A stretch of DNA of 36,961 bases from Pseudomonadota bacterium (GTDB taxonomy: Bacteria; SAR324; NAC60-12): positions 1 through 36,961 of the forward strand of contig SHAT01000018.1 of assembly GCA_004213175.1 (NCBI GenBank), given 5' to 3'. Both the position numbers and the translations under genes were made by a program. The notes under the pieces are model-generated. The model was given only the letters and a program-made list of their open reading frames with translations, was not told the origin of the DNA and searched no databases. Below, piece after piece: positions 23,459 through 26,346 of the stretch; positions within the stretch are counted from its first letter, which is position 1, and each line of letters opens with the position of its first letter.

Positions 23459-23485
23459 TTAGCACTCTAGTAAAGTGAGTGCTAA
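23459..23485 (+). promoter_or_regulatory. CIRCE operator (HrcA binding site) of clpB
   Basis: TTAGCACTC - 9 nt - GAGTGCTAA is a perfect match to the CIRCE consensus, centred about 45 bp before the clpB ATG. CIRCE is bound by the heat-shock repressor HrcA. The promoter overlaps it: a plausible -10 (TAGTAA, 23468-23473) lies in the spacer with a TTACTT -35 at 23444-23449, so bound HrcA would block polymerase. hrcA itself is not in the window. Confidence 0.93.
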
Positions 23486-23515: not shown

Positions 23516-26140
23516 ATGGATACTCAAAAATTTACTGAAAAATCTCTTTCAGCCTTGGAAAATGCACATAGTGAGGCGGTACGCCGTAAAAACTCCGAGT
23601 TGTCAACAATTCATCTTATGTATGCTCTCGCCTTTCAGGAAAATGGACTTGTTCCAATAATATTTGAAAAAATGGAGCTTGATTCGTCAATATTCAGTAA
23701 ATCAGTAGAAGTAGCTTTACAATCTTTACCGACGCTGAGTGGTAGTTCAGTGGGTAGAGTAGGCACCAGCGGTGAAATGAATCAGGCAATGGTCAGAGCA
23801 GAAGATGAAGCTCAAAAATTGGAGGATGAATTCATCAGCGTTGAGCATCTTTTATTGGCCATAAGTGCTGAAGGAGCAAAGGGCCCTGCCGGGAAGATTT
23901 TGCATAAAATTGGTGTAACACGGGAACGTTTATTAGACACTTTAAAAGTTGTTCGTGGAGGTCAACGGGTAACAAGTAAAAATCCAGAAGAAACATATGA
24001 AGCACTAGAAAAATATGGAACCGATCTGAGTCAATATGCTCGTGACGGTAAACTGGATCCGGTGATCGGTCGTGATGAAGAAATTCGAAGAGTGATTCAG
24101 GTACTATCTCGTCGGACAAAAAACAATCCAGTTTTGATCGGAGAACCTGGAGTCGGAAAAACAGCGATTGCGGAAGGTTTAGCTCAACGAATTGCGCGCA
24201 ATGATGTGCCTGATAGTCTTAAAAATAAAAAGCTGGTTTCTCTTGATATGGGATCTCTGATTGCCGGCGCTAAATATCGCGGTGAATTTGAAGAGCGTTT
24301 AAAAGCAGTACTTAAAGAAGTAGTCGATGCAGATGGTAACATTTTAATGTTCATAGATGAATTACACACGGTAGTTGGAGCAGGAAAAACTGAGGGTTCA
24401 ATGGATGCTGGCAATTTACTAAAGCCTATGCTGGCACGTGGTGAACTACACTGTATTGGTGCTACGACTCTTGATGAATACCGCAATTATATTGAAAAAG
24501 ATCCTGCGCTTGAAAGGCGTTTTCAACAAGTTATGGTTGATCAGCCGAATGTAGAAGACACTATTTCAATTTTACGAGGATTGAAGGAACGTTATGAGAT
24601 ACATCACGGCGTTCGTATCAAAGATGGTGCGTTGATTGCCGCAGCCACTCTTTCACAACGATATATTTCCGACCGTTTCCTACCAGACAAAGCTATTGAT
24701 TTAATGGATGAAGCAGCTTCAGGTTTACGGGTGGAAATCAACTCTATGCCTGCACAAATGGACGAAACAACACGTAGAATATTGCAGCTAGAAATTGAAA
24801 AAGAAGCACTGAAAAAAGAAAAAGATTCTGCATCCAAAAACAGACTGAAGAAACTTTCTAAGGAATTAGCTGAACTTAAGCACAACTTTGAAATATTGTC
24901 ACTTCAGTGGGAGAAGGAAAAGTCAGCTTTACAGGGTTTAAGTGAATTAAAACAGAAAATTGAAGAGGTGCGTTTGCAGATTGAACGGGCACGTCAGGAC
25001 TATAATCTGGAAGAGGCTGCACGACTGGAATATGGAGTCCTTCCGGAATTGGAGAGAAAACAACAAAACACACTTCTAGTGGATGAAAACCAGAATAATC
25101 AACTGCTTAAGGAAGAGGTAGACGCAGAAGATATCGCATCAATAGTAGCTCATTGGACCGGAATTCCAGTACAAAAACTTATTGAAGGAGAAGGCGAAAA
25201 ACTACTTCATCTTCCAGAACATTTGCATGAGCGTGTGGTGGGACAGGTCGAAGCTATTAATCTAGTCTCGGATGCAGTTTTAAGGGCACGCTCCGGGATT
25301 AATGATCCAAACAGACCACTCGGAAGTTTCATATTTTTGGGGCCAACCGGTGTTGGAAAGACAGAACTTGCTCGGGCTTTGGCAGAATATCTATTTGATG
25401 ATGAACAGAATATGATTCGTATTGATATGAGTGAGTATATGGAAAAACATTCAGTTTCCAGACTGATTGGAGCTCCTCCGGGTTATGTAGGTTTTGATGA
25501 AGGTGGACAGCTTACTGAGGCAGTGCGGCGTCGCCCATATAGTGTTTTGCTTTTTGACGAAATCGAGAAGGCTCATTATGATGTTTTCAATGTTTTGTTA
25601 CAAATTCTTGATGATGGCAGGTTGACCGACTCACACGGACGTACTGTGGATTTTAAAAATACTCTTGTTATCATGACTTCAAATATAGGAAGCCAAAACT
25701 TGATTAATCAAAATAGTGTTAAAATTTCTGATTCTTCAATTCAGTCAGAACAAAAGAATATTGTAATGGAGGAACTGCGTCAACATTTTCGGCCTGAATT
25801 TTTAAACCGTGTTGATGACACGGTTGTTTTTCATCCTCTGTTGCAGAAGCATATGAGCGCTATTATAAAAATTCAGTTAGAACGGTTGAAACAACGTTTG
25901 CATGAAAAAAATATTACCCTAAGCTTGTCCCAAAAAGTCATTGATTTCCTAGCTGAAGCTGGTTACGACCAGGTTTATGGAGCACGGCCGCTAAAAAGAG
26001 CAATCCAGAAGAAACTAGAAACTGAATTAGCAAGGGCAATATTGTCTGGAGAAATACAGGACGGACAGGAAGTAACTGCTAACGTTTCCGATGGAAAAAT
26101 ATTTTTTGAAAAGATAACTTTTGTATCCAAAGATAAATAA
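23516..26140 (+). CDS. clpB: ATP-dependent disaggregase ClpB
   Basis: Hsp100 chaperone that, with DnaK, pulls proteins out of aggregates. It is full length at 874 aa. The N-terminal Clp repeat domain (about 1-145) is followed by AAA+ domain 1 with Walker A GEPGVGKT (209-216) and Walker [11 protein letters not shown] long charged coiled-coil middle domain (about 410-530, the ClpB hallmark absent from ClpA) is next. AAA+ domain 2 has Walker A GPTGVGKT (609-616), [10 protein letters not shown] and the sensor-2 region [17 protein letters not shown] operator upstream indicates HrcA control. hsp20 follows 206 bp later with its own regulatory leader, so the two heat-shock genes use different control layers. 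The Shine-Dalgarno is weak (AAAAG). Confidence 0.97.
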
Positions 26141-26247
26141 GTCTTTAAGCGTTTTTCAGGCGGTAGGAGTTAAAAAAATTATCTGAATTAATCAGTTTTC
26201 TAGATTCGGTTTTCTCTCTTTTTCTTAGAGTTTGGGAAACCGTGTCT

Positions 26248-26346
26248 GGGGTTGACCATTTAGGTAACCCCTGTAAACCACCTCCAAGTTCAGTGCTATG
26301 GATTGGGGGTTATTTTGTAAACACCTTGCTTATTTAAGGAGGTACT
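26248..26346 (+). promoter_or_regulatory. ROSE-type RNA thermometer in the hsp20 leader
   Basis: Three successive hairpins can form. H1 is GGGGTT/AACCCC (26248-26253 / 26266-26271) with an inner ACC/GGT. H2 is ACCTCCAA (26280-26287) / TTGGGGGT (26303-26310). H3 (26323-26343) buries the ribosome-binding site: ACCTTGCTT pairs with AAGGAGGT around a four-base loop, with G26328 bulged opposite the Shine-Dalgarno. The TTGCT opposite AGGA with a bulged G is the diagnostic U(U/C)GCU motif of ROSE elements, which melt on heat shock to release translation of small heat-shock genes. Multi-hairpin leaders with the thermosensing stem last are the known architecture. The G+U pairing was read by eye, not computed. 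Confidence 0.8.

Follow-up and report, generated by a model that had tools for sequence, protein, structure and literature searches.

A conserved ROSE-like leader before hsp20 in a SAR324 bacterium and in phages: a predicted RNA thermometer

The region between clpB and hsp20 in a SAR324 bacterium raises the question of whether the hsp20 mRNA carries a temperature-sensitive switch, and of where such a switch came from. The gene is situated in a window of 36,961 nucleotides, the window being the whole stretch of DNA analysed and a contig from a metagenome-assembled SAR324 genome. ROSE elements control genes of IbpA-class small heat shock proteins (sHsps), and the hsp20 leader, 140–150 nt long, is very probably a ROSE-like RNA thermometer located downstream of CIRCE control. 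What is observed directly is the structure with its conservation and covariation, the class of the gene and the CIRCE sites; melting in the cell and the effect on translation are inferred, without expression data.

The hsp20 leader and its masking hairpin

The hsp20 product scores 116 bits against the NCBIfam IbpA model, under the equivalog cut-off of 212, and shares 44% identity with E. coli IbpA. The close relatives that occur in named genomes belong to the SAR324 cluster, a few being labelled just Deltaproteobacteria or Proteobacteria. The locus is ordered CIRCE, clpB, leader and hsp20 (Table 1), and clpB lies upstream of hsp20 in 8/10 orthologous loci examined. The CIRCE operator is the sole match in the window at ≤3 mismatches, with 0.01 expected. 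In three relatives (L039–L041), CIRCE is located directly before hsp20 and the H4 core is identical. Perfect CIRCE operators also precede hsp20 in several SAR324 genera, in both sHsp classes (L013, L014, L016, L018, L029, L039–L041). Within the leader, a consensus scan detects neither a terminator nor a sigma-70 promoter.

Table 1. Features of the hsp20 locus and a further RNA gene in the window
Feature	Position	Strand	Remarks
tmRNA gene	233–607	minus	165.9 bits
CIRCE operator (HrcA site)	23459..23485	+	perfect TTAGCACTC-N9-GAGTGCTAA, 30 nt before clpB
clpB, disaggregase	23516..26140	+	Pfam ClpB_D2-small, AAA_2, Clp_N; just upstream of hsp20
Leader hairpin H1	26207–26214/26234–26242	+	both-side changes in 4/8 pairs in genus, 7/8 with phages
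Leader hairpin H2	26248–26257/26263–26271	+	bulged G26254; shaped like ROSE hairpin I; covaries; 6 pairs changed on both sides with phages
Leader hairpin H3	26281–26291/26300–26309	+	10 pairs; 8/10 changed on both sides once phages added
ROSE-like hairpin H4	26323–26331/26336–26343	+	ACCUUGCUU paired with Shine-Dalgarno, bulged G26328
Shine-Dalgarno (SD) AAGGAGGU	26336..26343	+	masked in H4; 16S anti-SD complement
hsp20, IbpA-class sHsp, 157 aa	26347..26820	+	Pfam HSP20 60.5 bits; PHROG 432 Hsp20

In H4, sequence, folding and comparative structure agree on a helix in which ACCUU-G-CUU is paired with AAG-GAGGU, the loop being AUUU and the bulge G26328. The UUGCU motif occupies 26326–26330, opposite the SD, and is present in 11/11 orthologues. 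Together, the wobble pair U26327.G26339 and the bulged G make the pairing imperfect. An earlier note on this DNA had proposed that a UUGCU-bearing hairpin with a bulged G masks the SD, and sequence, folding and comparison bear this out base for base. The same note counted three leader hairpins; all three (H2, H3 and H4) exist in the span it reported, but it overlooked a fourth, H1 (26207–26242). The 5'UTR contains four hairpins in total, with compensatory changes in the upstream three. The apex of H2, CCAUUGUGG in several orthologues, and its bulged G are common to the E. coli ibpA leader. The fourU criterion of four consecutive U paired with the SD is not met, the anti-SD arm being ACCUUGCUU.

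An alternative hairpin between the ACCUCC arm of H3 and the SD was rejected, since this arm reads CUUC in L040 and ACCUUC in L037 with the pairing of H3 itself kept. Rfam matches in the leader to a miRNA, to NsiR1 and to a Na+ riboswitch are at chance level and under the cut-off. Four conserved hairpins are long for a minimal thermometer, and the leader might instead be a ligand riboswitch, or bind some other protein, with an incidental ROSE-like hairpin. This is very unlikely: no riboswitch family matches above chance, classical ROSE elements likewise possess three to four hairpins, and the gene that follows is always a chaperone gene, apart from a few phage contigs with a small gene just before it.

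Conservation, folding energy and relation to ROSE families

Wherever the sequence before hsp20 could be read in the SAR324 genus (11/11 genomes), the leader is present; among the 25 further SAR324 genera sampled, the leader model has no match. The idea of ROSE control as a general SAR324 trait was discarded: sHsps of other genera, where examined, belong to another class, and the motif is absent at their SD. In H4, all 8 pairs and both arms are invariant in the 11/11 orthologues and the 4-nt loop alone varies, so that H4 by itself exhibits almost no covariation. Within the genus, six pairs, in H1 and H2, are changed on both sides (0/500 shuffles), and H3 has no both-side change and one-side variation in 7/10 pairs.

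Adding phage leaders, which were found by the model and were absent from its building, gives a combined alignment of 25 leaders (11 SAR324 and 14 phage). Over the four helices, 118 cells carry both-side changes versus 33.2 ± 5.3 in shuffled alignments (0/500), and the covariation is 0.455 versus 0.209 ± 0.012 (0/500). The alignment was fitted to the structure, so the counts are biased its way; controls with slid positions drop to 0.05–0.13. The U.G pair of H4 becomes C-G in 10 phage leaders, turning UUGCU into UCGCU, and the bulged G with UUGCU or UCGCU is retained in all 25. The earlier note had named a lack of covariation in orthologous leaders as refuting its proposal; such covariation exists, in H1 and H2 within the genus and in H1–H3 with the phages. 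Judged by these aligned sequences, conservation is decisive evidence for a structure beyond chance.

Folding energy does not discriminate in this way. The single-sequence fold z-score is −0.73 (126 nt) or −2.12 (220 nt), and the predicted cost of opening the SD at 25 °C ranks 27th among the 88 starts with an SD in this genome. Neither value is decisive as proof of structure, and since energy alone is unremarkable, the argument relies on the comparative evidence. Between 25 and 42 °C, the predicted opening cost falls from 7.1 to 4.5 kcal/mol, compared with 5.5 to 4.0 for E. coli ibpA, 8.4 to 5.2 for ibpB and 6.5 to 4.4 for a rhizobial-type ROSE element. By predicted energies only, the SAR324 leader would lie inside the range of proven ROSE elements and fall with temperature likewise. 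The predicted melting displays no visible shift toward the cool temperatures expected of a marine bacterium.

The ordinary rank of the opening cost, together with the position of hsp20 206 nt after clpB, is compatible with a plain structured leader, in which H4 does no more than reduce or set the translation level of the second cistron, perhaps by coupling to clpB, without sensing anything. However, the identical core recurs where hsp20 has its own CIRCE (L039–L041) and in phages without clpB, and the bulged G and UUGCU/UCGCU are maintained over 25 leaders. A leader without sensing is accordingly held to be unlikely, if less so than a riboswitch.

In the thermometer model, transcription would be set by heat-shock control through HrcA and CIRCE, and H1–H3 would fold on the mRNA as stable modules. 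The SD would be held in H4, a short helix made less stable by the bulged G and the U.G pair. Warming, within a temperature range of the cell that is inferred, would open H4, allowing the 30S subunit to bind and the IbpA-class Hsp20 to be made.

The earlier note suggested a scan with the Rfam ROSE covariance models, and this did not support membership: none of ROSE (RF00435), ROSE_2 (RF01832) and ROSE_3 (RF02523) reaches its gathering cut-off on this leader. The best RF00435 score is 26.8 bits against a cut-off of 45, with two of the leaders aligned end to end, hairpin on hairpin; for ROSE_2 it is 19.4 against 65. In a calibration on E. coli ibpA, ROSE_2 gives 100.4, ROSE_3 gives 20.8 (cut-off 43) and RF00435 nothing. 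The Rfam ROSE models likewise miss an Aeromonas homologue, in which UCGCU precedes AGAGGG. Because the proven E. coli ibpA element is missed by the sister models and the Aeromonas element is missed too, the cut-offs fail to separate ROSE from non-ROSE, and the leader, scoring below gathering, is therefore called ROSE-like rather than a member of an Rfam family. In the alphaproteobacterial homologues examined, ROSE scores above the cut-off (45.7–85.5 bits), covering 8/9 plasmid IbpA-class loci, the ninth being that of Aeromonas. A search of 58 genomes with RF00435 returned no match, and the control genomes were equally without one. In the opposite direction, searching 20 kb with a model built from SAR324 leaders only recovers the E. 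coli ibpA thermometer at E 8.6e-5. The match rests chiefly on H2, and it is H3, not H4, that is aligned with the SD hairpin of E. coli. The ROSE-like class has been defined by U(U/C)GCU opposite the SD in a 3'-proximal hairpin, a bulged G and imperfect pairing there, two to four hairpins and an sHsp gene (PMC3669281); the SAR324 leader meets every part of this definition that can be checked from sequence.

Phage leaders and the origin of the cassette

A DNA pattern of H4 leads to two viral contigs in which hsp20 follows this leader; one of them encodes UvsX and a T4-type DNA polymerase. Viral contigs were also scanned with CCTTGCTT..AAGGAGG..ATG, and no per-contig count is drawn from the matches listed. 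A protein search yielded 80 viral contigs (L099–L178) with 73 usable hsp20 starts. The motif T[TC]GCT-N3..10-AGGA is located in the last 45 nt before 68/73 of these starts, versus 1/438 other SD-bearing starts on the same contigs, and is present in all 19 clusters of phage Hsp20 proteins at 70% identity. For the five remaining starts, the element lies before a small gene that closely precedes hsp20 within the same operon. A small ORF of 60–75 aa without family match follows a ROSE-like element, with hsp20 as second cistron, in L134, L135, L136, L139, L167 and L173. In L143, L145 and L149, the sequence of hairpin I is kept and the UYGCU core is absent, with no start codon resolved.

The motif was defined after these leaders had been viewed, and two further sets were chosen by protein alone. 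In these independent sets, it is found in 76/77 cyanophage-type genes (38 distinct leaders) and 15/22 pelagiphage-type genes, against 6/380 in the control. The seven pelagiphage-type misses have a variant core, AACUGUCU, in common. A pelagiphage-type lineage (L410–L417) keeps hairpin I, but its UYGCU core is replaced by AACUGUCUAAACAAGGAGGUU, possibly a variant thermometer. Among cultured phages (L299–L314), the motif lies at the annotated start in 14/16, and PA5oct has UUGCG. In S-SRM01 (L306, 257–307), the core falls within the stretch annotated as the N-terminus and is closely followed by an in-frame ATG, and the annotated start is apparently 51 nt early.

In the phage two-hairpin leader, hairpin I contains an unpaired G and is closed by a CC/GG step; CUCGCU...AGGAG follows. 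The model of this leader was built from nine clean rows; some rows of the first MAFFT alignments were out of register. It contains 98 both-side changes versus 31.5 ± 3.9, and in hairpin I 7/7 pairs covary around the unpaired G. Outside viruses, this model scores highest on the ibpB leader of E. coli (19 bits, E 0.12), reported as a second thermometer of that species. Furthermore, 22 viral contigs have the complete four-hairpin SAR324 leader in front of hsp20 (E values from 1e-8 down to 3e-22; one cut at the contig end). They include L101, which encodes a terminase, and L104, which has genes for clamp, clamp loader, RegA and DNA polymerase. The same putative device, complete or in two-hairpin form, lies before phage hsp20 genes.

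A tree of 61 proteins nests the Hsp20 of the SAR324 genus within the phage sequences, with supports of 99/95 and 100/95; cellular IbpA branches elsewhere, and the other SAR324 sHsps are far removed. This nesting suggests that the gene and the leader moved together, and both were probably passed between phages and the SAR324 genus as a single cassette. The direction from phage to host is likely, not proven, the cellular sampling being thin. It is a somewhat favoured proposal that phage Hsp20 is as a rule controlled by a ROSE-like thermometer, whether in T4-like cyanophages, pelagiphages, freshwater phages or giant rhizobial phages, and that the SAR324 genus obtained its gene and thermometer from such a phage.

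The leader might alternatively be chiefly a binding site for the chaperone, repressing its own translation and sensing free chaperone or the aggregation load, a role that could be combined with a thermometer. E. coli IbpA represses its own mRNA via the ROSE-bearing 5'UTR, for which Arg93 and an aromatic residue 34 are needed (PMC10474464). These residues align with Arg102 and Tyr45 of the SAR324 Hsp20; the Arg93 equivalent is kept in 9/9 SAR324 and 29/31 phage proteins, and position 34 is Phe, Tyr or Trp throughout. The three extra hairpins are conserved past the needs of SD masking. However, K98, also required in E. coli, is Ser in all SAR324 proteins, the conservation of Arg93 may have other causes, and both layers coexist in E. 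coli. Self-repression as the chief role is therefore possible rather than probable; from these residue comparisons, it may form a second layer besides the preferred ROSE-like thermometer.

Significance and comparison with known thermometers

The earlier note held that an element here would extend or confirm the range of ROSE elements, best known from Alpha- and Gammaproteobacteria; the additions are SAR324 and, above all, phages. The literature on phage RNA thermometers covers lambda cIII, SPbeta blyA and the sigma70 of a gut phage, the latter two being fourU elements; Robo-Therm reports one phage thermometer beyond the two already on record (PMC11182007). Papers on cyanophage sHsps leave the leader unmentioned (PMC3827213, PMC5028025), and no phage ROSE elements were found in the open-access papers searched, subscription papers being outside the scope. 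ROSE thermometers before phage chaperone genes do not seem to have been described before.

A relative of this Hsp20 is carried by 507 phage records. If the phage leaders work like the cellular ones, hundreds of sequenced phages would sense host heat or protein damage and make chaperone on demand, and if the cassette reading is true, phages would be carriers of a heat-sensing chaperone cassette. The existing isolates P-SSM2, S-PM2, Syn19 and HTVC008M make the phage claim directly testable, and the compensatory changes in phages constitute a large natural data set on the requirements of the ROSE fold. For SAR324, a largely uncultured marine lineage, the locus indicates a two-layer heat-shock circuit of CIRCE and a predicted thermometer, with a likely phage–host link.

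The known phage thermometers resemble the present leaders in residing on phage genomes and differ in being neither of ROSE type nor before sHsp genes (PMC11182007). The ROSE element of B. japonicum hspA and the Rhizobiales (RF00435) shares with the SAR324 leader a multi-hairpin 5'UTR, a hairpin I with a bulged G and an IbpA/HspA-class gene. Its consensus also shares with H4 the UUGCU, the bulged G, a 3-bp top, a 4-nt loop, and U.G followed by U-A. Compared with the Rhizobiales element, the SAR324 SD hairpin is shorter and leaves the AUG free, and an extra upstream hairpin and upstream CIRCE sites exist. E. coli ibpA (RF01832) likewise contains a hairpin with the apex CCAUUGUGG and a bulged G, an SD hairpin with an AUUU loop and a bulged G, and an IbpA-class gene, whereas SAR324 has two further hairpins. 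The short ROSE-like element of Pseudomonas ibpA, with two hairpins, the SD in the second opposite U(U/C)GCU and the AUG unpaired, follows the plan of the phage leaders (PMC3669281); the difference is that here the plan is phage-borne, and that the SAR324 leader possesses four hairpins.
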